Of a DNA stretch of 63,823 nt, positions 2,143-63,099 are shown one piece after another. The position numbers were made by a program, and so were the translations under genes. The notes under the pieces are model-generated. The model searched no databases. It had not been told where the DNA came from and saw only the letters and a program-made list of their open reading frames with translations. Origin of the DNA: a virus; the IMG/VR virus record IMGVR_UViG_3300031720_000003, positions 1 to 63,823 of that record; one strand, written 5' to 3'. The number at the start of each line of letters is the position of its first letter. Within the stretch, counting starts at the first letter, position 1.

Positions 2143-2543
2143 CACCGCAGGCCCCATGTGGTCGGCGTCTGCCACAAGTGGAACGTGTATGGGTGCTCGT
2201 TTACGTAGTCAACTCGCTGCGGCAGCAGCATCATCACGTCGATGTCGTCGCCGAAGAACGCATCGCGTACCAGCGTCACCGTCTCCCAACTGGGAAGCCG
2301 ATTCGGATGCGACAGCGAAACGTGCAGCAGCGGACCATGCGGTGTCTGCTCGTCGCTACCGATGATCCCGAGACTGATCGGCTGGCAGCGCCAGAGCCTC
2401 TGGTATTGCATGACACCGGGAGCAACTTCAGCCCTGACCTCTCCCGGAATCCGCCTGCACACACGCCCGTCGCTGAGCCGCACATCGCCGAGAGGCAAGA
2501 TTTCGCGACGAGCCCGAGCACCCGGCGGGAGCAGAATGCCCAT
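2142..2543 (-). CDS. DUF7694-like phage protein
   Basis: 133 aa. ATG 2543 overlaps the preceding stop (TGATG), which rules out the longer 179-aa reading from 2681. The C-terminal half has the arrangement I associate with DUF7694: HVSLSHPNRLPSWE, then a charged helix, then YVNEHPYTFHLWQ. The family is common in actinobacteriophage early operons and has no established biochemistry. It is co-transcribed leftward. Confidence 0.65.
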   Translation of the reverse strand: MGILLPPGARARREILPLGDVRLSDGRVCRRIPGEVRAEVAPGVMQYQRLWRCQPISLGIIGSDEQTPHGPLLHVSLSHPNRLPSWETVTLVRDAFFGDDIDVMMLLPQRVDYVNEHPYTFHLWQTPTTWGLR

Positions 2544-25817: not shown

Positions 25818-25823
25818 TATAAT
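25818..25823 (+). promoter_or_regulatory. -10 box for the antisense HNH gene
   Basis: A perfect TATAAT lies 18 bp before ATG 25841, on the plus strand just outside the start of the tail-tube gene. No good -35 is visible. The leader would be only about 11 bases, so translation is close to leaderless. Confidence 0.45.
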
Positions 25824-25840
25824 TGATCCGCCTAAAAGCG

Positions 25841-26656
25841 ATGGCGGGTTGTCTAGTTATCGACTGCACACAGCCGCACTACGCGCGCGGGGTTTGTACG
25901 AGTCACTACCACCGGTGGCGTAATGGGGACGCCACGATTCCCACCGCACCGCTAAAGGTGTGGCTACCGCAGCCCGCCTGTTCCATCGAAGGATGCGACC
26001 GGCAGGCCAAGAGTCGCGGATGGTGTCAGTTGCACTACGCGCGGTGGCGACTAAACGGTCACCCGCTGAAGTTGGTTCGCCATGGGCCGCCTGAGGAGCG
26101 ATTCTGGCGTTGGGTCAATCAGAGTGGGCCCGTTTCGGAGATGCGGCCCGATCTCGGATCGTGCTGGCTGTGGACCGGCTCGCACGTTACGTGCGGATAT
26201 GGGCTGTTTCGCAAGGAGAAGGGTTCAACGCGCAGTTCGCTTGCCCACCGATTCGCCTACACCATGCTGGTGGGAGAGATCCCGGAGGACTATGAGATCG
26301 ACCACCTCTGCTGCGTGCGGGACTGCGTGAATCCTGAGCACTTAGAAGCCGTCACGCCTGCCGAGAACCGGCGGCGCAGGATCGCTGTGAAACCCCGGCG
26401 CCCATGGAAACGCCAAACACATTGCGTGAACGGCCATGAGTACACGCCTGAGAACACCTACGTGAACGCCAGGAGCGGGTGGCGCTTCTGCCGAATCTGC
26501 AAGCGCGCCGCCTTTATGAAGTGGTACGCGAGCAAGCGAGCGGCCGCTTCCGCTCAGTCCTCCTGCTTATCGGTGGGCGCAGGCGGTGTCGGCTCTGCGG
26601 CCTTGGCTGCGACGGGTGTCGGTGGTGTCACACGAGTAACGCGCGCGTCCTTGTAG
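25841..26656 (+). CDS. HNH homing-type endonuclease with zinc knuckles
   Basis: 271 aa from ATG 25841. Two N-terminal zinc repeats (CTQPHYARGVCTSHYHRW, then CDRQAKSRGWCQLHYARW) precede an HNH core (LAHRFAYTMLVGE, EDYEIDHLCCVRDCVNPEHL), and CVNGHEY / CRICKR form a C-terminal finger. It lies opposite to and between tail genes, as selfish HNH genes do. The last 34 residues (SVGAGGVGSAALAATG) are antisense to the minus gene at 26554 and are probably acquired read-through sequence. Confidence 0.85.
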   Translation: MAGCLVIDCTQPHYARGVCTSHYHRWRNGDATIPTAPLKVWLPQPACSIEGCDRQAKSRGWCQLHYARWRLNGHPLKLVRHGPPEERFWRWVNQSGPVSEMRPDLGSCWLWTGSHVTCGYGLFRKEKGSTRSSLAHRFAYTMLVGEIPEDYEIDHLCCVRDCVNPEHLEAVTPAENRRRRIAVKPRRPWKRQTHCVNGHEYTPENTYVNARSGWRFCRICKRAAFMKWYASKRAAASAQSSCLSVGAGGVGSAALAATGVGGVTRVTRASL

Positions 26657-36622: not shown

Positions 36623-37165
36623 CTACGCCGGGATCGTCCAGCAGTGGCAGCCCGGATGCACAGGTGGCGATCCGTCGGGCCAGTGGTCGTTCATACCGAT
36701 CGGTGACGCTGCGGCATTGGCCTGACAGCGTTTGCACTGTCCGCCCACCCAGTGCAGACGTTGCACATGGTTGGCGCGGTACACCTCCATGGCAGCGAGG
36801 TGTGCAGCCTTGGCCTGCTCGGTCTGTGCAAGCAGTTTCGCGCGGCGCTGGATAGCCGATGAGACCGCGCGCTCAGTGGTGCCCGCGTCGCTCGGTGTAG
36901 TGACGCTGCTGGCGATGCGATCGGCGACCTCGAAGAGCAGCGCGTGGGCTACTCCGTCTGCGATGGGCAGTTCGGCCAGACGCTCAACCACATGCGTGTG
37001 ATCGGGTACGGGAACCCCGAGTGCATCCGCCGCACGTTTGGCCCCTGCTAAGGCGCCGAGATTCCACAGCGCTCGCAGCGCGGTGACGACGGCGTCGAGG
37101 ACGACGCCGAGGTTGAGCAGGACGGCGAGCGCCGCATCACGGGCCCGGGCGCGGGGGTCGCTCAT
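36623..37165 (-). CDS. MuF-like minor head protein
   Basis: 180 aa. Long helical N-terminus; the C-terminus is the MuF/SPP1-gp7 signature: QRLHWVGGQCKRCQANA, then PIGMNDHWPDGSPPVHPGCH with paired Cys and HPxCHC. Located right after the portal gene, where MuF-type proteins are found. Involved in head assembly or DNA-ejection cargo. Confidence 0.75.
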   Translation of the reverse strand: MSDPRARARDAALAVLLNLGVVLDAVVTALRALWNLGALAGAKRAADALGVPVPDHTHVVERLAELPIADGVAHALLFEVADRIASSVTTPSDAGTTERAVSSAIQRRAKLLAQTEQAKAAHLAAMEVYRANHVQRLHWVGGQCKRCQANAAASPIGMNDHWPDGSPPVHPGCHCWTIPA

Positions 37166-37292
37166 GCCAAGCCAGCTCGTAGGCGATCAGCAGGATGAGC
37201 ACGATCACGGCAGCTCCCCACAGCCAATGCAGCGAGATGCCCCCGCCCAGCAGGGCAAGGATGAGCAGGATGGCAACGAAGAGCAGCAGCAT
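37137..37292 (-). CDS. 51-aa membrane micro-protein next to the portal
   Basis: ATG 37292 overlaps the portal stop (TGATG). Two hydrophobic helices: MLLLFVAILLILALLGGGIS and a second at about 28-41, then a Pro/Arg tail. It overlaps the MuF gene start by 29 bp. Hydrophobic pattern and overlap support it; function unknown. Confidence 0.6.
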   Translation of the reverse strand: MLLLFVAILLILALLGGGISLHWLWGAAVIVLILLIAYELAWHERPPRPGP

Positions 37293-39517
37293 CAGGCTGT
37301 CGCGTTCTGCGCAGCTGCAATGGCCTGCTGACGGGTCGCCTCGGGAATGAGCGCGGACAAGGCTGCATGCAGATCCGCGTCGTCGGCGTGGCGCAGGAAG
37401 GCACGATCCACCTCCTCACGGGTGGTGGCTTTGCCCAACTCCGCCCAAATCTTCTCGCTCAGCGCATCGGGCAGTGCTGCATCGGTGAATCGGCGCGGGC
37501 TGAGTCCCTTGCGCAGCCGGTTGCGGGCGTTCTCCCGCCAACGGCGCAGGATGCTCGCGATCTCATCCGTGTCGGGCTCGACCATGTCCACACCAGTCAT
37601 GCCCGTGCTCGCGGTGATCCCTGCGGTGGCTTCGGCTTTGTCGAGCCGCGCGAGCAGGCGATCCACGGTCGTCAGGGCTGCCTTGAGCGCCTCCTGGTCG
37701 TCGTCCAGCGAGCCCACCGCAGTGTCGGCTGGGAAGGGGGCGGGTTGTCCGCTGGTGATCGCATTCATGTTGCGCGACATCTCAGCGGTGGCTTGATCGG
37801 CGAGCTGGTTGTCCTTGGAGCCGATGGGTGGCATCACCCCGGGCATGGGCACGAAGGGATGCGGCACCAAGGGCGCTCCTTTGGCTGGCCCGAAGGTCTC
37901 GGGATCGATGTCTCCCGCCATCGACTCCAGTGCGATCAGCGGGATGGGACCGCTTCTGGTGTTGTCGATGAAGCGCGGGGTGGGCCGGTTCAATGACACC
38001 GGATAGCCGAGACGCGCGCGGGGTTCATCCGGTGAGATGACCCCAGTGCGGATATAGACCGCTTCTGCATTGGCGGTGCTGAGCCGGTCCTCGATCTCGC
38101 GGCCGGTGTCCATGCGCAGCCGCACCCGGAGCTTGAGGTGCTCCGAGAGGAACAGGTTGATGACATCTTCGACGTGCTTGATGAGCGGCAGCGTGCCAAC
38201 CCTGAACTGCACATCGACCTGCACTTCGCTGGTCGCTTTGTTCACCGTCTCGGTGAAACCGAGGTCAGCAGGCGTGACGCCGTGTGCTGCGCAGGTTCGC
38301 CGCATGAGATAGAGCGGGAACTCGGAGTCGAACTCGTCCGATCCCGGGCCCACCGGCTGATACTTCGAGCCCGCTGGCACCCAGCGGATCTGGCGCAGCT
38401 TGGACTGGTCGCCGATCATCAGCGCGTCCCAGGTGTTCTGCCACTCTGCGATCTGCGCGGGGTCGGAGAGATCCGGTGGCGCTTCCATGAATCCTGCTGG
38501 GATCGAGCCCTGCGCGAAGTAGTTGAGGAAGTGCCACTGGAAGCGCAGATCCGTGTTTGCGGTGAGCATCACCGCCTCGAGCGGCGCGCGACCGTACTGC
38601 GAATCCGGCTCGGGATTGAGCGGCTGGTAGACGAGATCGTCAGCTGCCAGCCAGTCCCAGGGCATGCCTTCGATGACCTGCACGTAGGCTGGCGCTACCT
38701 CACCGTGGAAGGTGCCTGCGGGTGAGACGTTCGGGTCAGCATCGTCCTCATCAGTGACGACGCGTCCGTAGTAATCGAGTTGCGGCACGATGCTGGTTCC
38801 CGACACCACCTCGAGTGCGATGGGATCGCCCGCGCGATTGCGGCGGATGTAGAGCGCGCCCGCATCGAAGCGGATGACATCGGTGAGGTACTCGGCCAAC
38901 CAGGCGCGGAAGGGCTGCCGCTTGTCCGGCGAATCGAAGAACTGCCGCGCTTTGATGATGTCGTCGGACACATCCTCGCGAATGCCGATCGCCGCCTCGA
39001 AGTGATAATCGAGCGAGCGCACATCGTTGATGAGGTGGCGCGTGGCAATTTGCGCGATGTCATAGGCTTCCCAGAGCGCCTTGATGGTGGCGAAGGAGAT
39101 GCGCCCCGCGCGCGGCGAGACCTGGGTGTTGACCCCTATCTGGTAGTCGAAGGTGCGCGCCGGCTGGCGATAGCCGAAGAAGGGATCCAGCGGCCGACCC
39201 GGGGAGAAGGGCGGTGCCATGGAGAGGCCCTGCCGCTGCAGCGCGAGTTCGACCTGCTCCGGGGTGCGCTTGAAGGTGCTGGCCAGGTTGGAAGTGACCC
39301 GGTTAAGCAGGGATTGGCTGGCTGCACCCAGCGGCGTGCCCCATGAGGAGGTGCCGTTCATGTCCCCCCCGTAGGGGATCACCCCCACCCCGGCCTTGCG
39401 CACCGTCTGATCAGCGAGGAGGGCGCCCACGGTAGCGTCGATGGCCTTGCTGAAGGCGAGAGCGTCAGCTGATTTCTGGGCGTCTCGGGAGCGACGAAAG
39501 GGAAGCGAGAACGCCAT
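37292..39517 (-). CDS. Portal protein
   Basis: 741 aa. Portal-type signatures: ISFATIKALWEAYDIAQIAT near 140, RQFFDSPDKRQPFRAWLAEY, VIRFDAGALYIRRNRAGDP, APLEAVMLTANTDLRFQWHF and HGVTPADLGFTE near 430. Longer than typical, with a Pro/Gly-rich region after about 550. It follows terminase and a small gene and forms the DNA-entry ring of the capsid. Confidence 0.9.
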   Translation of the reverse strand: MAFSLPFRRSRDAQKSADALAFSKAIDATVGALLADQTVRKAGVGVIPYGGDMNGTSSWGTPLGAASQSLLNRVTSNLASTFKRTPEQVELALQRQGLSMAPPFSPGRPLDPFFGYRQPARTFDYQIGVNTQVSPRAGRISFATIKALWEAYDIAQIATRHLINDVRSLDYHFEAAIGIREDVSDDIIKARQFFDSPDKRQPFRAWLAEYLTDVIRFDAGALYIRRNRAGDPIALEVVSGTSIVPQLDYYGRVVTDEDDADPNVSPAGTFHGEVAPAYVQVIEGMPWDWLAADDLVYQPLNPEPDSQYGRAPLEAVMLTANTDLRFQWHFLNYFAQGSIPAGFMEAPPDLSDPAQIAEWQNTWDALMIGDQSKLRQIRWVPAGSKYQPVGPGSDEFDSEFPLYLMRRTCAAHGVTPADLGFTETVNKATSEVQVDVQFRVGTLPLIKHVEDVINLFLSEHLKLRVRLRMDTGREIEDRLSTANAEAVYIRTGVISPDEPRARLGYPVSLNRPTPRFIDNTRSGPIPLIALESMAGDIDPETFGPAKGAPLVPHPFVPMPGVMPPIGSKDNQLADQATAEMSRNMNAITSGQPAPFPADTAVGSLDDDQEALKAALTTVDRLLARLDKAEATAGITASTGMTGVDMVEPDTDEIASILRRWRENARNRLRKGLSPRRFTDAALPDALSEKIWAELGKATTREEVDRAFLRHADDADLHAALSALIPEATRQQAIAAAQNATA

Positions 39518-39846
39518 TACGGGCTCGCGGTCTCGGCGTCATGTCGTAGCTTCGCACCGAGACAAAACAGCAGCCCGTGCATGATGAGGCGGTACACGTA
39601 TTCCGCCTCCTGCTCGGTAAGCGTCGACGCCGGATCAGCGAGTTCGCGAGCACCAATCCGAATGCCAACGCGACTAGCGCCCTCGCGTGGATCCTCTGGA
39701 TTAGTGCTGTGAACGAACCACAGCGTCACGTCCTGACGCACGACTTCATCGGGAAGATGTGCGGTGCCGATGTCAGCGGGAAGCGGCTCCAGCGATGGCA
39801 AATGCGCCATCGCCTCATCCCAGAGTGCGTCGCCGTACCACGTCAT
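39517..39846 (-). CDS. Unknown small protein between terminase and portal
   Basis: 109 aa; its TAA shares a base with the portal ATG (TAATG) and it overlaps terL by 4 bp. Contains DVTLWFVHSTNPEDP and EQEAEYVYRLIMHGLLFCLG. Helical C-terminus. No family recognised; the tight overlap implies a function coupled to packaging or portal assembly. Confidence 0.65.
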   Translation of the reverse strand: MTWYGDALWDEAMAHLPSLEPLPADIGTAHLPDEVVRQDVTLWFVHSTNPEDPREGASRVGIRIGARELADPASTLTEQEAEYVYRLIMHGLLFCLGAKLRHDAETASP

Positions 39847-41669
39847 TGCCCGTCGCTCCTCTGTGCGCCGCAGTACACGCAGTGCCCATCACCAAACCAG
39901 CGGTGCTGGCAGGTCGCTGAGGGTTTGGGGATCTCCGGGGCGTCGGGGCCGAGCAGGTAGTCGCGCGGTGAGGCAGCGGGGAGCGCCGCAACCGCCGGCC
40001 CCGGTGGCCCGCTGTTGCCGTTCGCGACTGCGGTCTGCTCCCCTTGCTTGCCGAGTTCCTGTTTGAGGTAGCTGAGCCACCCGGCGCCCATGCTCGGTCT
40101 CGATGCTGCGCGGTCGTGAGCCATCACCGCAGCGATGGCAAGGTCGATCTTGCGCGGTGACCATTTGTTCTGCTTGCGCAGCCGGCGTCCCCGGTAGTCG
40201 TCGTTGACCACCGCGTTGCCGAGATGGCGGGTCAAACGCTCATCGCCAGAATGAGTGAGCGTGCCGTTGACCACAGCGGTCTGAAACCGCGCGGTAGCCG
40301 GGCACATACGTTCGGGAGTTTGAGGATACTCCACCACCGGGAGGCCCTCTTTGGCGAGGGCCTGCATGGTGCGAGCCCAGCGATAGGGGTCGAAGAGCAG
40401 CTCCCGCACACGCCAGCGCTTGCAGGCGGTACGGATCACGCCCTCGACTTCCTCGATGGGCACCGTCCACTCGCCCTCGCCGGCCTCAGGACGCTCCCAC
40501 ACCCCGACCACGTCGAGATGCGGCCGATCCCCACAGGCGGCCACCATGATCCCGGTGCTGTCGTCGTTGTACGACCCGTCCACGGCCAGCATCACGTCAA
40601 CGCCATCGGGCACCGGCCCGGGCACCGCACGGTCTGGCCAGGGGCGGGTGACCTCAGCCCAGGATTCCGCCGTTCCCGACCAGACCTGGTTGAAATAGAA
40701 GCGCCGGGAGATGGACTCCGAGGTGGTGGGGTCGCGCATCTCGGCGAGCACGCGGGTGAGATCCACCCACACCGAATCACCCCGCGCCGCTCGCAGCCCC
40801 TCCATGACCACGGGGTCGGGGAGGTTGTTCAGAGCGATGGGTTTGCCGTCGTCGCCGAGGATCAGCGGGGCCTCAACCGAGTCGTAGTAGACGCCCTCGA
40901 GCTGGCCGTCGGACTGCCGCCACGCCTCATAGGTGGCTTCTGCCACCGAGCCCTCCTCGACCAGGTGGGCGTTGGTGATCTCCATCACCCGCGCAGCGCC
41001 GTCTCGAGACTTGCCGAGGTTCCGGCGGATCGCCGACATCATGGCGGCACCGTCGTTGGCAGCCAGCCAGTGCGCGGTCTCATCGGCCACCACCAGCGAG
41101 GGCCGGCCGCCTTCCAGCGCTCTCGGGGAACTCGTCACCGCCTCGATTCGGGCGGCTCCCTTGCGGCTGTAGATGATCAGCTTGCCGATGTCGACGTCGT
41201 ACTCATCGAGCGCGGCGCGTGAGAAGAGTCCCGGGAACACCGTCATGGTGTTGCGGGTCTGGTCCTGGTTGACCGCAGCGATCTGCACCCAGGGGGCCGG
41301 ATGGGGAATGGCCACCGGACGCTTGCGCGCGTCCCAGCCGCCGAATCGGCAGGGACCACAGAGCTCGACAGCTGCGAGCGCCGCGAGAAAAGGTGACTTG
41401 CCCTAACCCCACCCCTTCATTCGACGCAAGACGCCGCGCCGATGGACGAACCGGCCCTCGTCGTTCACTTCGTACCAGCGCAGGATGATCTTGGCCTGCT
41501 CGGTGGTGAACTCCCAGGGCTGGCCGGCATTGGGGCCGTCAGGCTGCGTTAGGTTGTCAGCCGTCCATTCCAAGACCGCCCAGCCGAGCGTGCGATCCTC
41601 GGGTGGCACCACGTCGGGCCAGGAGCGGATCGATGGGGGTAGCGTCAGAGAAGGGGTGGAAATTTGCAA
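39843..41669 (-). CDS. terL: Terminase large subunit, interrupted by an in-frame amber codon at the P-loop
   Basis: Full frame from TTG 41669 (AGGAGGTGA just upstream) to 39843: 607 aa plus one internal TAG at 41405-41403. ATPase: KGWG, then TAG, then GKSPFLAALA at the P-loop; Walker B LVVADETAHW. Nuclease: VMLAVDGSYNDDSTG, ELLFDPYRW and KIDLAIAAVMAHD carry the acidic triad. Removing two codons (GGT TAG) gives KGWGKSP, the usual motif of related terminases, so a 6-bp insertion is likely. The stretch after the stop could also be initiated internally but would lack the P-loop. Confidence 0.85.
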
Positions 41670-41683
41670 CTCACCTCCTTCCC

Positions 41684-41714: not shown

Positions 41715-41927
41715 GTGACCTGTCCTGAGTGCGGCATGTCTGAGTGGCGCGGCATCGCGCAGCACCGTCCAACCTGCTCACGCAGCACCCGGTCGACGCC
41801 GGCCGACGACAAGCGCCGGGTGTGTGCTGGCTGCGGTAAGACGTATCAGCCAGCGCCCACCGGGCGACCCTCGCGTTTCTGCACGGCCGCCTGCCGAGTT
41901 ACGACGTGGCGAGCGCAGCGATCCTAG
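41715..41927 (+). CDS. Two-finger zinc protein, antisense between terL and terS
   Basis: 70 aa from GTG 41715. First finger CPECGMSEWRGIAQHRPTC, second CAGCGKTYQP ... RFCTAACR. Its TAG shares the palindrome CTAG with the TAG of terS on the other strand. Being a plus-strand gene within a packaging operon with repeats in front suggests a small regulator. Function unknown. Confidence 0.6.
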   Translation: MTCPECGMSEWRGIAQHRPTCSRSTRSTPADDKRRVCAGCGKTYQPAPTGRPSRFCTAACRVTTWRAQRS

Positions 41928-42346
41928 CCAGCGACCGCCTTCCGGTAACGATGCAGCTGCACGACCGAGTTCGGCACGGGTGGAGCACCCTTCTCCAGCT
42001 CGATCCGAGCCCGGCGTCGAGCCCCCTCAGTGGTCAGCAATTCAGTCATGGCCGCCATCACCGAGGCGAACAACTGGGCCGAGAACCGGCTCTGCTCGAG
42101 GTTGCGCGACATCGCCTCAGCCACATAGCGCGCGGTCAGCCAGTCCGACTCCTCATAGAAGCGCGACTGCCCCGACTGCCCGAGGGAACGAAACCACTCC
42201 TGGGCCATCGGTGCCCACGACGGATCCGGCTCGGGTGCTGGACGATCCGCCGCCCCCGAGGGAGCGGTGATCACCGGTACCTCGGGCTTGTTGCGCCGGC
42301 GTCGCTCCTCAGATCGCTTCGGCAACGGGCCGTCACCAGGCATCAA
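41924..42346 (-). CDS. terS: Terminase small subunit
   Basis: 140 aa. GPLPKRSEERRRRNKPE is the usual basic start in actinophage small terminases, then SGQSRFYEESDWLTARYVAE, RFSAQLFASVMAAMTELLTT and GARRRARIELEK. It recognises the packaging site and recruits TerL. Located between HNH and terL, as in HK97-like packaging modules. Confidence 0.85.
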   Translation of the reverse strand: MMPGDGPLPKRSEERRRRNKPEVPVITAPSGAADRPAPEPDPSWAPMAQEWFRSLGQSGQSRFYEESDWLTARYVAEAMSRNLEQSRFSAQLFASVMAAMTELLTTEGARRRARIELEKGAPPVPNSVVQLHRYRKAVAG

Positions 42347-42442: not shown

Positions 42443-42787
42443 CTAGAATTTGGTGGAGGGGAGGATGGTGATAGCCGCGGTGGGACGGTCACGCTTGGCG
42501 GAGTTGCAGGACTGACAGAGCACGGATACGCCCGTGTGTGCGGTGCCTCCGAGGGCTACGGGGAAGGTGTGATCGAGGCTCAGCTTGTGGGTGGACATGC
42601 ACGGCCCTGTGTGGCGGACACAACCTGCGCAGGTGCAGTGCTTGACCTTGGCGCGTTCGCGTCTGCTGAGGGCCTGCCACTGGGGGCCATAAGCTGCGTT
42701 GTGATACAGGGCGGCACAGGGTGCGCATCTACCGTCCATGGCTCGGGTGAGCTCGCCGCAGTGCAGGCAGGGACGGGGCAACCTCAC
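42443..42787 (-). CDS. HNH endonuclease of the packaging module
   Basis: 114 aa from GTG 42787 (GTGA overlap). Zinc ribbon CLHCGEL / CAPCAALYH, then the HNH core HTGPCMSTHKLSLDHTFPVA and LCQSCNSAKRD. HNH proteins directly before small terminase, as in phage HK97 (gp74), assist cos cleavage and packaging; this one is in the operon and on the same strand, unlike the selfish HNH genes elsewhere here. Confidence 0.85.
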   Translation of the reverse strand: MRLPRPCLHCGELTRAMDGRCAPCAALYHNAAYGPQWQALSRRERAKVKHCTCAGCVRHTGPCMSTHKLSLDHTFPVALGGTAHTGVSVLCQSCNSAKRDRPTAAITILPSTKF

Positions 42788-44625: not shown

Positions 44626-44718
44626 ATGGAACAGCACCCCATGGAGGACAGGCCCATGGACGACGACGCGATCGACAGATGGCTAGATGACGGCGGGGCC
44701 GTGGGATCAGATCAATGA
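44626..44718 (+). CDS. Short leader peptide or micro-protein
   Basis: 30 aa from ATG 44626 at the predicted transcript start; ATG 44656, behind GGAGGACAGGCCC, would give 20 aa. Ends DDGGAVGSDQ. Its 3' end runs into the end of the minus-strand HNH gene, so it may be the stub of a gene cut by that insertion. Confidence 0.4.
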   Translation: MEQHPMEDRPMDDDAIDRWLDDGGAVGSDQ

Positions 44719-45212
44719 CCGGCCAGACGCTTCAGCGACCGGGCTGGCCAACGCCGACGATCCCGCTCCCGCCGACAGATTCGGCACTTGCGCGAACCGT
44801 TGTAGACCTCAACCTTCGTGTTCTCGGGGCTGTACGGATGCCCACGGGGACAGTGCGTCTTGCGGAGGTTGGCACCCGGCCGAGTGTGGCCGCTTCGGAT
44901 GTTCTCGCGATGGGTGGCCAGTCGGAGGTGTCCGAGGCGAACGCAGGCCCGGTGGATGCACTTCCCTTCGCAGGTTGCCTTGTTGTGACAGACATGGTCA
45001 ACCTCGAAGCCCTCAACACCGCCCACCATGATCGAGTACACGACGCGGTGGGCGTCGCGGACTTTGCCGTCCCAGTAGATGTGTCCATAGCCCGTCGCGC
45101 CACGGGCACCGACCCACAAGTAACAGGCTTCACCCTCACCGAAGGCGATCTTCGCGACCATGCGCGGTGGCAAGAGTTCACGGTAAGCGCTGGGTGCGAG
45201 ATCCACTATCAC
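44712..45212 (-). CDS. HNH homing-type endonuclease
   Basis: 166 aa from GTG 45212. HNH core: AHRVVYSIMVGGVEGFEVDH then CVRLGHLRLATHRENIR, followed by the C-terminal finger CPRGHPYSPENT / CRICRRERDRR. Minus strand, placed across the plus-strand small-gene operon, so it interrupts its leader. TAAAAT just upstream (minus) may be its own -10. Confidence 0.85.
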   Translation of the reverse strand: MIVDLAPSAYRELLPPRMVAKIAFGEGEACYLWVGARGATGYGHIYWDGKVRDAHRVVYSIMVGGVEGFEVDHVCHNKATCEGKCIHRACVRLGHLRLATHRENIRSGHTRPGANLRKTHCPRGHPYSPENTKVEVYNGSRKCRICRRERDRRRWPARSLKRLAGH

Positions 45213-48728: not shown

Positions 48729-48868
48729 TGGGCGTTGTTGACCACGAAACGGATGAGACGTGCGAGCACCGCCTGCACCTGCGCCGGCGTCGCGGTCCCG
48801 GCGTCGAGCGCAGCCAGCACGGCCTTCAGTTGCTTGCGGTTGGGCGCGCCATAGTCAGGGTCGTCCAA
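48725..48868 (-). pseudogene. C-terminal remnant of a gene paralogous to 49487-49825
   Basis: The frame from about 48868 reads LDDPDYGAPNRKQLKAVLAA then TPAQVQAVLARLIRFV, which aligns with YDPLYGQPHTRALQAALNAA and NAQIQTILGHLIRRV of the gene at 49487. Upstream of 48868 the frame is antisense HNH sequence, so the N-terminal half is missing. It is either a remnant or a 47-aa domain started at TTG 48868 without a ribosome site. Confidence 0.6.
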
Positions 48869-48886
48869 GATGCTACAATTGGAGTC

Positions 48887-49552
48887 GTGGACGATCTCGT
48901 GCTCTGGCGCCGCTTTTGGAGCCGGGTGCGAATCGGTGATGGGTGCTGGGAGTGGACGGGCTATGTCATGCCATCCGGATACGGCAGCATCACGATTGGC
49001 CCGAGAGGTGCCACCCAGCGTTGGGTAGTGCATCGGCTCGCCTATGAATGGCTGGTCGGCCCGATTCCTGACGGCCTCGATATCGACCATGAGTGTCACA
49101 ACCTAGACCCCAACTGCCACGGCGGCCCTTGCCCCCATCGCCGGTGTGTGAACCCGAGTCACTTGGCTCCCAAGACGCGACGACAGAATCTCAGGGCCAG
49201 CCCTCATTGGGAAGGCAAGCGAACGCACTGCCCGCTCGGCCACCCCTACGATGAAGCCAACACGCGCGTGGCAGCGGAGAGGCCGCGACACGGCACCAGC
49301 CGCAACTGTCGAACCTGTGACCGCGAGGCGCATCGCATCCTCCGTCAAGACCCAGCCTACGAGGCTCGCGCGCGTGAACTGGCGCGGCAGTGGCGACTCA
49401 AGCACGCGGATGACCCCGAGTGGATCGCGAAGGAACGAGAGCGCAGCCAACGACGCAGCGCAGAGGCGAAGGCACGTCGTAGGGCTTCACGAGCTACCCA
49501 GAACACGACGAATCAGATGCCCCAGGATCGTCTGGATCTGAGCGTTCGTTAG
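48887..49552 (+). CDS. HNH homing-type endonuclease (leaderless)
   Basis: 221 aa from GTG 48887. TGCTACAAT (extended -10, 48871-48879) is 7 bases upstream, so transcription would start at or next to the start codon. N-terminal LWRRFWSRVRIGDGCWEWTG is an NUMOD-like or AP2-like entry, the HNH core has VVHRLAYEWLVG and DGLDIDHECHNLDPNCHG, followed by CPLGHPYDEANT / CRTCDREAH, then a long basic helix. Its 3' end overlaps the gene at 49487. Confidence 0.85.
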   Translation: MDDLVLWRRFWSRVRIGDGCWEWTGYVMPSGYGSITIGPRGATQRWVVHRLAYEWLVGPIPDGLDIDHECHNLDPNCHGGPCPHRRCVNPSHLAPKTRRQNLRASPHWEGKRTHCPLGHPYDEANTRVAAERPRHGTSRNCRTCDREAHRILRQDPAYEARARELARQWRLKHADDPEWIAKERERSQRRSAEAKARRRASRATQNTTNQMPQDRLDLSVR

Positions 49553-54710: not shown

Positions 54711-56167
54711 CAGTGGAATGTGACCGTCAGCGTCGGGGCATGCGCACTCTCACGACTAGCAACGCGTTGTATCCATCCGGCCACGCTGAACGACAGGCCG
54801 AAGTCTGCTTCACTGCCCGACGAGCAGGGCACGTCCACGCTCACTGTCGCGTTCAGGCTAGGTGTCGAGGTGGTAGCGAGCACGGTGCTGTTCCAGGCCG
54901 GCTGCGAGCTCCACGTCGTGCTCTCTGTCCATCCGGTCGCTTCGGGATGCACTTGGATGCCGCCTGAGCTGGGCGCCACCGTGGAGTAGAGATGCAGCGT
55001 GCATGTGTCCACCGTGCCTGCGGGCAACGGGAAGCGCAGCAGTGATCGGTACTGCGAAGCGCTCGCGTCCAGTTCTGCGCTGCCACCGTACGACGGGCCC
55101 GGAGCGCCGCCGTACACGTAGGTGTCCACGCTGGCCGTCTCGGTCACCGTTTGCTCACCGCTTGGCGTCGGTGTCGCCGTGGCCGTTGGTGTGCTCGTCG
55201 GTGTTGCGGTGGGCGTCGCCGTTGCTGTCGCGGTGACTGTCGGTGTCGGTGTGGGACTCGTCGAGGGGAACGCCCCGCTCAGATCCCCGTTCGCTGCATT
55301 GCTGGCTGCGCCCGTGAGTGGGAGGCCGAAGGCTTCCTCGATGGCGCGCAGAGTGCCGTAGTGGTTCAGCCCAGAGGTGAACTGCCCAGCCGACTTCGAG
55401 GAAATCACAATGGTGGCGATGTGGCCACCGCTCGAGCCGTTGAAGCCAGCGTTGCTTGAGCCCTCATCGAAGGTGAGGATCACGACGCCGTTGGTGGCGA
55501 ACCAGGGCGACGATAGGACCGCGGGGAGGCGGTTCTTCAGCCAGGTATCGCCCTGCGAGATCGAACCGTCGTGCATGTCGTCGTTGAGATTGGGGGTCAC
55601 CCAAGCGAACGACGGGCCCCCGCTCGCGTTGAGCGCACCCGAGAGGTCACTGGGCAGCGGCACGTCGTGCGACGCGCAGGTTGCACCCAGTACATCGCTC
55701 AGGTAGACAAAGGGGTTGTGTTTTTTCGCGTACGCACCAGACGATGCCCCCGTGTAACACGCGGACGGCATGGTCTCCATGTACGCTTTCCAGGGGATCC
55801 CCGCTGCGCTCAGCTCACCGGGAAGATCCGGGCCTGCGAACGGTCCGCACGATGTGCAGTCGTCGGTGACACCGTGCGTTGAACCCGTCGTCAACGCGAG
55901 GTAGTTGGGCAAACTGGGGTGCGTCGTCGCGTACGACTGCGTTGCGAGATTGTGCTGCTGCGCCAGTGAGTTGATGTACGGCGCGCTGCTGCTGCCGATA
56001 ATCGACGTTATTTCGTGATTCTCTTCGACGACCACAAGGATGTGCGGAGCCGCGCTACTCGCTGTGCTCTGCCCCACCAGCCCGATGCCGAGCACCGTGC
56101 CAGTGAGCAGCAGTGCCGCCGCGCCAGCCCCGAGGACAGCGCGCGGATAGGTGGTGCGCAGCCTCAC
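54710..56167 (-). CDS. Secreted phosphoesterase with C-terminal DNRLRE (CBM96-like) domain
   Basis: 485 aa from GTG 56167, chosen because it makes a GTGA overlap. A signal peptide or anchor (VLGAGAAALLLTGTVLGIG) leads to a phosphoesterase/acid-phosphatase domain of the PLC-like alkaline-phosphatase superfamily: HILVVVEENHEITSIIG, YATTHPSLPNYLALTTGSTH with the nucleophile-type Ser/Thr, WLKNRLPAVLSSPWF, VVILTFDEGSSNAGF and GGHIATIVIS. A Thr/Pro linker (PTPTPTVTATATATPT) joins a DNRLRE domain (VDTYVYGG ... RSLLRFPLPAGTVDTC). A cargo-like gene for a phage. Confidence 0.75.
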   Translation of the reverse strand: MRLRTTYPRAVLGAGAAALLLTGTVLGIGLVGQSTASSAAPHILVVVEENHEITSIIGSSSAPYINSLAQQHNLATQSYATTHPSLPNYLALTTGSTHGVTDDCTSCGPFAGPDLPGELSAAGIPWKAYMETMPSACYTGASSGAYAKKHNPFVYLSDVLGATCASHDVPLPSDLSGALNASGGPSFAWVTPNLNDDMHDGSISQGDTWLKNRLPAVLSSPWFATNGVVILTFDEGSSNAGFNGSSGGHIATIVISSKSAGQFTSGLNHYGTLRAIEEAFGLPLTGAASNAANGDLSGAFPSTSPTPTPTVTATATATPTATPTSTPTATATPTPSGEQTVTETASVDTYVYGGAPGPSYGGSAELDASASQYRSLLRFPLPAGTVDTCTLHLYSTVAPSSGGIQVHPEATGWTESTTWSSQPAWNSTVLATTSTPSLNATVSVDVPCSSGSEADFGLSFSVAGWIQRVASRESAHAPTLTVTFH

Positions 56168-56346
56168 CGTCGCGCCGCCTGCTCCAACCGCCATCTCCCG
56201 TACACGAAGCGGTGCAGCTCCCCGCAGCTGCCACAGCGCCAGAGCTGGCCGAACATGGCCCGGGGACTCGGTGGGCTGCATTCATGCGCCGGCTGAGGCC
56301 GGATGAGCGCGGCCACCTGGGCACGCAGATCGAGAGCGGTGGGCAT
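56164..56346 (-). CDS. 60-aa zinc protein
   Basis: ATG 56346 with AGGAGG 7 bases upstream; its TGA overlaps the next GTG (GTGA). MPTALDLRAQVAALIRPQ, then HECSPPSP and WRCGSCGELHRF, forming a zinc site. First gene of the fibre/host-recognition operon. Unknown. Confidence 0.65.
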   Translation of the reverse strand: MPTALDLRAQVAALIRPQPAHECSPPSPRAMFGQLWRCGSCGELHRFVYGRWRLEQAARR

Positions 56347-60761: not shown

Positions 60762-61330
60762 GCCGCTGCCTCCGGCAGTGCAGCGATCAGCGCGGCGTAG
60801 TGGCGGAACTCCGTGAGATGCAGGCGAGCGTCGGCGAGTGCGCGGTGCGGCTTGCTGCCGTCCAGCTCGGGCACCAAGTCCTTACGCTGCGCGTAGTCAC
60901 GAATCAGCCGGCGCACCGGTCCGACATCCATGCTGGGGTAGTCGAACATCGCCTCGACACGCGGCATGTGGGCCTTGAGCCAGCGCCGGTCGAAGTGCGC
61001 CACTCCGCTGCCGGCGAGACGTAGTGGCGGCTCGAACTGATCCAGGAAGGCGAACAGCTGCGTCTCGGCAACGCGGAGCGGGCAATGGCAGGCGTCGACG
61101 GCGATCGCCAGCCCGTTGGCCGCATGCATGGCCGTGACGGTGTCGTCCATCAGCGATCGCCAGTCCTGCCTGTAGAGCCGGATGATCCGCGTGAACTCGC
61201 CGAGCTCCACGAAGGGCGCGGCGGGATCCGTCACGACGACAGCGACCTCGAGGATCTCGCCGGTGCGCTCGTCGGCGCCGGTCGTTTCGAGATCCAAGAA
61301 AGCTAGGGGTGGTTCGCGGCGCTTGCTCAC
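60758..61330 (-). CDS. DnaQ/oligoribonuclease-like DEDDh exonuclease
   Basis: 190 aa. LAFLDLETTGADERTGEILE is Exo I; GSGVAHFDRRWLKAHMP carries the second Asp; KPHRALADARLHL is the Exo III His/Asp. The catalytic set is complete. A 3'-5' exonuclease, proofreading or nucleic-acid turnover, lying between the Gp37-like and methyltransferase genes. Confidence 0.85.
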   Translation of the reverse strand: MSKRREPPLAFLDLETTGADERTGEILEVAVVVTDPAAPFVELGEFTRIIRLYRQDWRSLMDDTVTAMHAANGLAIAVDACHCPLRVAETQLFAFLDQFEPPLRLAGSGVAHFDRRWLKAHMPRVEAMFDYPSMDVGPVRRLIRDYAQRKDLVPELDGSKPHRALADARLHLTEFRHYAALIAALPEAAA

Positions 61331-62661
61331 AGCACTGCTGCCATCTGACGTCCTGTCTGTGCGAGGCGGCGCTCAGCGAGCCTGACGTACGCCGGGTTCA
61401 GCTCGATGCCGATGTAGTCGCGGTCCAACCCCTTCGCCACGGCGAGGGTCGTACCGCTGCCAGCGAAGGGATCGAGCACCGTGCAGGGCACTGGCGAGCA
61501 GCTCGTGTGGGCGCATGTCGGCTCCCAGCCGGAGGTTGTCGCAGCGCGGTTGACGCGCGGCATCGCTGCGCCGTCCCAGCCATTACTGCCCGTGGCGTAA
61601 TGGCGCCCGACCACTGAGCTATCGCCGTGAACTGGACTCTTGACGTACTCGACACTCACCATCCGGCGCCATGGCGCTCCACAGTCAGCGCACGCCCCGC
61701 GCTCTGATGTGCCGGCGAGGATGCAGGGCTCTACCAACGCCTCCGGGAACGTCGCGAAGTGCGCGCCCGGATAGGGCTGCGTGGCGATCGTCCAGACACT
61801 GCGCTTGTTGCGCGTTAGCGGCGCGGTGCCGTTAGCCTCTGAGGCGTCCCAGTTCTGGTTCAGGTCATGCAGGCGGTCACCCGGCTTGGTGTCGGGCCGC
61901 GTGACGTTCTTGTGGTTGGCGTACCGGCCGATCCGGTCGCCGTTGTCACCGCCGGGTCCGGTGTTCCAGCCAGACGGCAGTCGCTCTTCAGAGCGGCGCG
62001 TGAAGCCCTGGCCATAGGGCGAGTGCTGAGGACCGTTGGGCCCCACGTACTGCGCCGGCTCACGAATAGCCTCCGCATCGTAGAAATAGCGCTCACTGCG
62101 GCTGAGCAGGAACACATACTCATGTGCCTTGGTGGGCCGGTCCGTGACGCTCTCGGGCATCGGATTGGGCTTCGACCACACGATGTCACTGCGCAGCCAC
62201 CACCCATCCGCGCGCAGCGCGAAGGCCAGCAACCACGGCAGCCCGACCAGATCCTTGGGCTTGAGTCCCGCGACGATGGTGTTGAACGGCTTGTCCCGGA
62301 AGGTGCGGTCGTCCTCATCGTGCGGATGCGCATAGGTCTTGGCGCTGCCTATTCGCCGGCGCGCCTGTCCTCCATCATGCAATCCAGTGTTGCCAACGTT
62401 GCCGTTGGGCTGCGTGGCATAGCAGTCGCCCATGTTGAGCCAGAGCGTCCCGTCCTTCCGGAGGACGCGCCGGATCTCGCTGAAGATCTCAACGATCTTC
62501 TCGACATACGCTTCCGGTGTCGGCTCGAGGCCCAGCTGACCGGGTGTGCCGTAATCGCGCAATCCCCAGTACGGTGGGGACGTCACGCAACACTGCACGC
62601 TCTGATCCGTGAGCGTTCGAAGGACGTCGAGGGCGTCACCGCAGTGGAGTTCGCTACTCAC
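61327..62661 (-). CDS. Beta-class DNA methyltransferase
   Basis: 444 aa from GTG 62661 (GTGA overlap with the end of the Mom-like gene). Motif IV CCVTSPPYWGLRDYGTPGQL comes first, and motif I CTVLDPFAGSGTTLAVAKGL near the C-terminus, so it is beta-class, of N4-cytosine or N6-adenine type; the SPPYW form favours N4C. LVGLPWLLAFALRADGWWLR and VWSKPNPMPESVTDRPTKAH are further family motifs. Likely shields the genome from host restriction. Confidence 0.9.
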   Translation of the reverse strand: MSSELHCGDALDVLRTLTDQSVQCCVTSPPYWGLRDYGTPGQLGLEPTPEAYVEKIVEIFSEIRRVLRKDGTLWLNMGDCYATQPNGNVGNTGLHDGGQARRRIGSAKTYAHPHDEDDRTFRDKPFNTIVAGLKPKDLVGLPWLLAFALRADGWWLRSDIVWSKPNPMPESVTDRPTKAHEYVFLLSRSERYFYDAEAIREPAQYVGPNGPQHSPYGQGFTRRSEERLPSGWNTGPGGDNGDRIGRYANHKNVTRPDTKPGDRLHDLNQNWDASEANGTAPLTRNKRSVWTIATQPYPGAHFATFPEALVEPCILAGTSERGACADCGAPWRRMVSVEYVKSPVHGDSSVVGRHYATGSNGWDGAAMPRVNRAATTSGWEPTCAHTSCSPVPCTVLDPFAGSGTTLAVAKGLDRDYIGIELNPAYVRLAERRLAQTGRQMAAVL

Positions 62662-63099
62662 GTAGCAACTGCCTTGATGAGCAAGTGGTAGCCGCGCTGG
62701 CTGACGCCGGCAAATCGGTAGCCAGCCACCTTGAAGCAGTAGCCGGGGTTCGGGCTCTGCACGCGTCGCGGATCGACGTACGTGTAGAACTGTGAGACCC
62801 CCCCCCCAACGCTCTAGCGCATGCTGCTCGGCCTCGAGGATGATGTCCGAGCTGAGCCGCTCACTCTCGTTGCGGAAGATGGTGCAACTGACGCCGGGCA
62901 CCGCGTGGTGCTGCGGATAGAGCCAGCCAAACACCACTGATCCGGCGAGATCGCGCAACACCAGCGTCCGACCGTTGCCCATGAACTCCCGTGCGCCGGG
63001 CGTCTGCCTGCTGTAGTGGCGATCGGCGAGCAGGCGCGATTCAGCGTCCGTCCGCTTCACAGCGACGAGGTTGTCTGGCGCGCTCAGCGGTAGCAGCAT
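62658..63099 (-). CDS. Mom-like DNA-modification protein, frameshifted at a poly-G tract
   Basis: 146 aa if one G is removed. GNAT-like/Mom-type pattern: RLLADRHYSRQTPGAREFMG, TLVLRDLAGSVVFGWLY, CTIFRNESERLSSDIILEAE in one frame, then SQFYTYVDPRRVQSPNPGYC and FKVAGYRFAGVSQRGYHLLI in the next. The two halves join at a run of ten G (62807-62798, minus strand). As sequenced the first half is fused in frame to the methyltransferase. Nine or six Gs would restore the normal ending, whose TGA overlaps the methyltransferase GTG. Confidence 0.7.
62798..62807 (-). repeat. Homopolymeric poly-G tract
   Basis: Ten Cs on the plus strand in the Mom-like gene, the longest homopolymer I see here. One base out of frame for a continuous gene, so a slippage, phase-variation or sequencing site. 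Confidence 0.8.

Follow-up and report, generated by a model that had tools for sequence, protein, structure and literature searches.

The window analysed here is the whole of a 63,823-nucleotide stretch of phage genome (IMG/VR record IMGVR_UViG_3300031720_000003), and its minus strand carries the gene for the large terminase subunit (TerL) from position 41669 to 39843. Six extra bases interrupt the Walker A motif, KGWGKSP, of this gene, where an amber codon lies in frame. The break region reads AAG GGG TGG GGT TAG GGC AAG TCA CCT in the window sequence, and its translation runs ...RRMKGWG, TAG, then GKSPFLAAL... in the same frame. The features of the gene and its surroundings are as follows, with the basis of each in brackets.

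41674..41680, minus strand: Shine-Dalgarno (S-D)-like AAGGAGG ahead of the TerL start (sequence)
41669-41667, minus strand: TTG start codon of TerL (sequence)
41406..41669, minus strand: N-terminal part of TerL, 88 codons from the TTG to the proposed take-off glycine (PHROG 9, E 8e-16; dN/dS 0.24 against L002, a relative described below)
41406..41417, minus strand: AAGGGGTGGGGT, the KGWG codons, S-D-like in the mRNA; candidate nascent-peptide and internal S-D signal (sequence)
41406..41408, minus strand: proposed take-off codon GGT, Gly (sequence and family comparison)
41403..41405, minus strand: amber codon TAG, which would lie in the A site, within the proposed skipped stretch (sequence)
41400..41402, minus strand: proposed landing codon GGC, Gly (sequence and landing codons across the family)
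39843..41402, minus strand: C-terminal part of TerL with the Walker A lysine, Walker B and the nuclease domain, through the TGA (PHROG 9, Pfam PF20441; dN/dS 0.215 against L002)
39845-39843, minus strand: TGA stop codon of TerL (sequence)
41924..42346, minus strand: terminase small subunit gene, directly upstream of TerL (Pfam PF25673 Terminase_7, E 7.5e-41)
42446-42787, minus strand: HNH endonuclease gene near the small terminase gene
44715-45212, minus strand: HNH endonuclease gene (HNH_3)
25823-26653, plus strand: HNH endonuclease gene (HNH_3)
48830-49549, plus strand: HNH endonuclease gene (HNH_3)

Both flanks of the amber codon match terminases: the 88 residues before it belong to PHROG 9, terminase large subunit (E 8e-16), and the 519 residues after it to PHROG 9 (E 2.7e-56) and to Pfam TerL_nuclease (PF20441). 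This confirms the in-frame amber codon in the TerL P-loop that had been described in a first-pass annotation made from the sequence alone. We found 1,798 phage records with a relative of the C-terminal part, all with identity below 60%. No second TerL was present in the window, where the C-terminal part is single copy, and no tRNA gene, including a suppressor tRNA, was found there. TAG terminates other window ORFs that have homologues in the related phage G001, and global reassignment of the amber codon was therefore rejected. The genome had also been described as full of HNH genes, four of which were found in the window; the three HNH_3 genes match one and the same G001 ORF and are thus paralogues. 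Elsewhere in the window, the portal gene (37292-39517) and a downstream ORF (36623-37165, minus strand) align to a single 1147-aa ORF of G001, hence a fusion or split difference. A phosphoesterase with a CBM96 module is encoded at 54713-56281 and an N6/N4 DNA methylase at 61330-63099, both on the minus strand.

Among the 80 viral loci nearest to the window TerL, 77 read KGWGKDP or KGHGKDP gap-free and three (L002-L004) carry an insert, so the earlier description of the break as a six-base insertion is the right one. The six extra bases had been written as TTAGGG or GGTTAG; their number stands, and the repeated GG makes the two spellings equivalent. L002-L004 are one phage in three IMG/VR records, and its C-terminal part is 62% identical to that of the window. 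Its break reads AAG GGG TGG GGT TAG GTAAG ACC, with the same amber codon in the same place and five extra bases and, unlike the window, with the C-terminal part out of frame with the N-terminal part. Comparison with the nearest viral relatives thus upholds the insertion.

We scanned further sequences for the same arrangement with patterns that imposed neither insert length, frame nor first codon, and that had no bias toward stops. Scan 1, of a viral collection, sought KGWG...GKDP with a glycine codon at both ends and 2-32 bases of any content between; it gave 40 stretches, 39 of them in TerL, and all inserts were 5-13 nt long. Scan 2 covered genome contigs and allowed 1-14 bases between; of its 16 stretches, seven were in TerL, from Streptomyces (five prophages), Amycolatopsis and a Gordonia MAG. 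A GK[ST]P version (scan 3) returned six stretches, four in TerL including L002-L004, and a version with the landing bases free (scan 4) returned 53, of which 40 were TerL. United, the four scans yield 68 TerL loci, not counting the window, whose P-loop holds an insert of 4-15 nt in the same position. Adding the window and four loci from isolated phages brings the total to 73 rows, which fall into 44 clusters at 90% amino-acid identity, the clustering being greedy and approximate. Contig copies (L089, L135, L154, L251) and whole-record loci (L258-L261, L263) were removed before counting, and a scan that favoured TA right after take-off was kept out of the codon counts. A motif filter dropped 27 rows with insert-like spacing as non-TerL, among them L039, in our judgement an uninterrupted TerL whose lysine codon is AAA. 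A search for inserts in the KGHG variant gave two matches, neither of them TerL.

The inserts occur in cultured and isolated material. Four plaque-forming phages isolated on Streptomyces, phiHau3, BroPlease, GreenWeasel and Triumph, have a P-loop insert of the TTA form; TTA is thus found in all of these isolated phages and a stop codon in none, and no stop-type insert in an isolated phage was seen among the matches listed (25 in each of two listings, with coordinates and annotation only). Cultured Streptomyces albospinus has two prophage TerLs, with inserts TGACCC and TAACCC. Across 392 Streptomyces-group genomes (the genus of the L243 genome), the DNA pattern identified five interrupted sites in four genomes and 18 uninterrupted sites in 16. 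The annotated TerL of BroPlease (ON526970), GreenWeasel (ON526974), Triumph (OQ190479) and phiHau3 (NC_018836) is a split CDS or misc_feature because of the inserts. At residue 327 of its C-terminal part, the TerL of L214 has an extra single in-frame TGA besides its P-loop insert, which is an error or another recoding site.

The inserts agree in the kind of codon that follows take-off. It is a stop (35) or TTA (24) in 59 of the 68 loci, which places a stop or slow codon in the putative A site, as in programmed translational bypassing; the full counts are TAG 22, TGA 8, TAA 5, TTA 24, AGA 4, CCA 2, AGG 2 and GAT 1. Of the sense codons, TTA is used least in these genes (18 times in 24,750 codons of the C-terminal parts of interrupted genes, never in 25,151 codons of uninterrupted relatives), and AGA is the third rarest. 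For a random insert at the base composition of these genes, the probability of a stop or TTA right after the take-off codon is about 0.03; binomial probabilities on clusters presuppose that the clusters are independent, and nothing here rests on them. The inserts have no sequence in common across the family. Insert length modulo three is 1 in 19 of the 44 clusters, 2 in 14 and 0 in 11, which is no different from uniform (chi-square p 0.33), and therefore frame does not matter: 33 clusters break the frame, and in 11 the insert is divisible by three.

The take-off codon encodes glycine in 59 of the 73 rows and tryptophan in 14, with a stop or AGA directly after TGG in the latter. In the landing-unbiased scan, glycine-type loci land on GGN in 23 of 26 cases, on GAC in two and on AGC in one, while the 14 tryptophan-type rows have AGG (12), CGG (1) or TGA (1). 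Apart from these exceptions and the tryptophan type, the take-off codon has a cognate landing codon, and the protein is encoded in two separated pieces that only the skipping of nucleotides, in whichever frame, would join, which is the arrangement of programmed translational bypassing. In the window, GGT and GGC encode the same amino acid and are identical at two of three bases, and GGT TAG GGC gives the in-frame stop-hop layout of nine nucleotides per amino acid; L225, with GGT TGA GGT, likewise has synonymous codons around a stop. L202, an outlier on the tree, has the insert GATTTTTT (2242-2272, plus strand) that includes a T TTT TTG run, at which ordinary -1 slippage may take place.

The clade that includes the window (SH-aLRT 99) has inserts of 6 nt in the window, 5 nt in L002 and 9 nt in L157, all of the form GGT-TAG...GG[TC]. 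Readthrough could serve the window and L157, and frameshifting could serve L002; judged from these sequences, a single hop from GGT to the next GGT or GGC would yield KGWGK[SDT]P from all three, and nothing else does. A tree of 84 rows requires no fewer than 36 changes in insert length, 47 in insert sequence and four in insert presence; with 11 of 57 plain rows included, the four is a lower bound. Insert lengths shift freely among relatives. Between the window and L002, both of which are interrupted, dN/dS is 0.24 before the break and 0.215 after it, and for 15 further interrupted pairs dN/dS past the break is 0.09-0.33 in 14 and 0.49 in one distant pair. We conclude that purifying selection acts on the sequence past the break.

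We propose, with a probability of roughly 0.84, that the window TerL is made by short programmed translational bypassing, in the form of a natural stop-hop. The proposal rests on sequence comparison, from which we infer its translational nature, the tRNA slip, its efficiency, the roles of KGWG and the S-D-like bases, and the effect on dosage. Counting against it are the imperfect landing codons in part of the family, the TTA form of every P-loop insert in the isolated phages, the lack of RNA structure or stronger S-D-like pairing that would set interrupted genes apart at this site, and L202, where -1 slippage could serve. Once ...KGWG has been decoded, the ribosome would halt while peptidyl-tRNA-Gly is paired with GGU and the A site holds the amber codon. 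A fraction of ribosomes would release GGU without terminating, slide six nucleotides and re-pair on GGC, which the same tRNA-Gly should be able to read. Decoding would resume at AAG, and hence the nine nucleotides GGU UAG GGC would specify one glycine, and the Walker A motif would again read KGWGKSP. An 88-residue fragment would be released by ribosomes that fail to hop. The KGWG nascent peptide and the S-D-like GGGGUGGGG may contribute to the hop, which would set the ratio of the 88-aa fragment to full TerL and keep the motor scarce, thereby limiting the dosage of a protein presumably needed in few copies.

KGWG and the S-D-like G-rich codons AAGGGNTGGGG are present in uninterrupted genes too. 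RNA structure at the P-loop site does not differ clearly between interrupted and plain genes (mean z over 90 nt downstream, -0.21 versus 0.34), and pairing with the anti-S-D sequence there is not stronger in interrupted genes (mean duplex energy, -9.51 versus -10.05 kcal/mol). Since KGWG and the S-D-like bases are common to plain genes and no structure distinguishes the two groups, the site would seem to be hop-permissive by itself, and we infer that all an insert would have to supply is a codon slow to decode in the A site and a codon acceptable for landing. The nascent-peptide point had been made for Hau3 in PMC5009743.

A second interruption site, absent from the window TerL, lies at the approach to Walker B. 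In L217, L218, L223, L230, L249 (GreenWeasel) and L250 (phiHau3), the sequence ...EGARS/TFVVLNE is interrupted as TC[TC]-TTA...-TCC; TTA again stands right after the take-off codon of this short form, and in all six loci TerL also has a P-loop insert. Following an odd break in L255 revealed a long form at almost the same place, with 44-47 nt between ...GARPTF and FVVCDEV, in these loci:

L308 (the same as L255), L309, L310, L318 and L320, prophage loci: long Walker B form, gap just upstream of 1501
L324, isolated phage Ponzi (PQ723756), 1939-2000: long Walker B form

The take-off codon of the long form is TTT, and so is the landing codon, except for TTC in L309. The distances are 50, 47, 49, 50, 50 and 50 nt in L308, L309, L310, L318, L320 and Ponzi, and thus span two different frames. 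Directly after the take-off codon comes a covarying hairpin of 16-17 bp (-33 to -44 kcal/mol), imperfect at its base in L310. Over the six sequences 94% of cells pair and four of 17 pairs are changed on both sides, and slid versions fare much worse. Past the gap dN/dS is 0.05-0.22, with dS 0.9-2.9. Of 16 loci, 15 were examined for the gap, which was present in five and absent from ten. Ponzi TerL is annotated as two terminase genes, one with the ATPase domain and one with the nuclease domain; if bypassed, the joined sequence would read ...GARPTFVVCDEV.... On sequence and predicted structure, the long form is a candidate for gene-60-like bypassing.

Other routes to a single protein fit parts of these data. 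Stop-codon readthrough, in which a suppressor tRNA would decode the amber codon and yield KGWG-X-GKSP, is compatible with the frame kept in the window and with the 11 of 44 clusters whose inserts are divisible by three. However, frame is not kept and amber is not used as sense across the family: 33 of the 44 clusters break the frame, L002 of the window's own clade among them, and other members have TAA, TGA or the sense codon TTA. Readthrough would also put two extra residues inside the P-loop, the window has no tRNA gene, and TAG ends other genes there. We consider it quite improbable, and amber suppression, one of four options raised in the first-pass annotation with none preferred, falls with it. 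Ordinary -1/+1 frameshifting would link both parts in single members, such as L002 by -1 (KGWGLGKTP), and the T TTT TTG run of L202 would suit it, but it is useless for the window and the other in-frame clusters, both directions would be required, a common slippery motif is absent, and variable residues would sit inside the P-loop; we think it highly improbable. Removal of the extra bases by mRNA splicing or editing would give the same protein as bypassing, although the placement of a stop or rare codon would then make no sense and, to our knowledge, 4-15 nt is far shorter than any known intron. We give this almost no credence.

The window is a single metagenomic contig, known as assembled sequence, and a dead gene or a sequencing or assembly error might be suspected. 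The same insert site in 68 more loci, from metagenomes and cultured-strain genomes, and in isolated phages makes this very unlikely, as do the dN/dS of 0.215 past the break and the lack of another TerL in the window. An error or mixed assembly, another of the options first listed, is similarly hard to reconcile with a trait common to independent phages, cultured-strain prophages and isolated phages, and the inert scar of a lost intron or intein is contradicted by purifying selection past the break. Ribosomal bypass, the remaining one of the four, is well supported. A separate question is how the inserts arose. Conserved catalytic motifs are common homing targets, and an origin as endonuclease protection or scar at a hop-permissive site has been argued for T4 gene 60. 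The P-loop inserts might similarly be protection against, or a scar of, a homing endonuclease aimed at the P-loop codons, and a hop-permissive site would let the phage tolerate them. Both TerL insert sites are at catalytic motifs, and the window has HNH genes, as do the TerL neighbourhoods of several relatives. However, no nuclease is linked to the P-loop site, phiScoe15 has an HNH gene near an uninterrupted TerL, and a scar alone leaves the stop or TTA directly after the take-off codon unexplained. We regard this origin as possible but doubtful; it concerns origin and is compatible with bypassing.

Beyond the window, we see a slightly better than even chance that phages of Actinobacteria have in TerL a hotspot where ribosomes naturally hop in a programmed way, at each of two catalytic motifs. 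The P-loop hops, 4-15 nt long and frame-blind, would pass over any stop codon or rare codon, and among them would be the first in-frame stop-hops known from nature. They would tolerate relaxed landing codons and need no dedicated RNA structure, since the KGWG peptide and G-rich codons would make the site hop-permissive. Where the sequence approaches Walker B, there would be short hops over TTA as well as a gene-60-like 47-50-nt hairpin bypass. The combined effect would be to restrict or gate production of the packaging motor. The family offers dozens of natural variants of take-off codon, A-site codon, gap and landing codon in one motif, which makes the rules of hopping directly testable. The inserts also explain split-gene terminase annotation in public phage genomes, and they warn that an in-frame stop interpreted as a case of suppression or as the mark of a pseudogene may instead be a hop.

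Very few natural cases of bypassing are well proved (T4 gene 60 and yeast mitochondria), and the TerL candidate of phage Hau3 reportedly goes back to Smith et al. 2013. We re-found phiHau3 among the carriers of P-loop inserts. Within the open-access literature, PMC5009743 was the only source found on TerL bypassing. This 2016 review considers bypassing likely for TerL of Hau3, a Streptomyces phage, and of the prophage Strep C.1, ties it to UUA, ranks the Streptomyces UUA cases as the best candidates for regulatory bypassing, and describes a natural in-frame stop hop as not known; PMC4351075 mentions a possible bypass at a tape-measure gene. Hau3 and Strep C.1 resemble the window in the gene, the KGWG site, a short gap and a slow A-site codon, but their A-site codon is UUA, whereas the window and its clade have a stop codon. 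The family further extends beyond Hau3 in its inserts of 4-15 nt and in interrupted members from Amycolatopsis and a Gordonia MAG. With stop codons and non-Streptomyces hosts in the family, UUA is not required, and the insert family suggests that UUA is not special. As far as the open-access literature shows, the A-site stop codons, the nine-nucleotide stop-hop, the family breadth and frame-blindness, the relaxed landing codons, the hosts beyond Streptomyces and the second-site hairpin form would be new.

Synthetic stop-hop work in E. coli, as outlined in the same review, pointed to matched codons that flank an A-site codon which is a stop or slow to decode (PMC5009743); those are constructs, whereas the window is a natural sequence. 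T4 gene 60, again as described there, is like the window in its Gly take-off codon followed by UAG, in resumption past a synonymous codon and in a gap unrelated to frame. It differs in having a gap of 50 nt and two matching GGA codons, together with a stem-loop at take-off and a signal in the nascent peptide, where the window has 6 nt and no special structure, and the second TerL site, with 47-50 nt and a hairpin, is closer to gene 60 than the window's insert does. The byp elements of Magnusiomyces mitochondria, in the review's account (PMC5009743), resemble the TerL family in their short skipped blocks and an unused codon in the A site. However, byp elements are spread over many mitochondrial genes, and their bypass is independent of context and attributed to relaxed ribosomes, whereas the TerL inserts lie at defined motifs in bacterial viruses.
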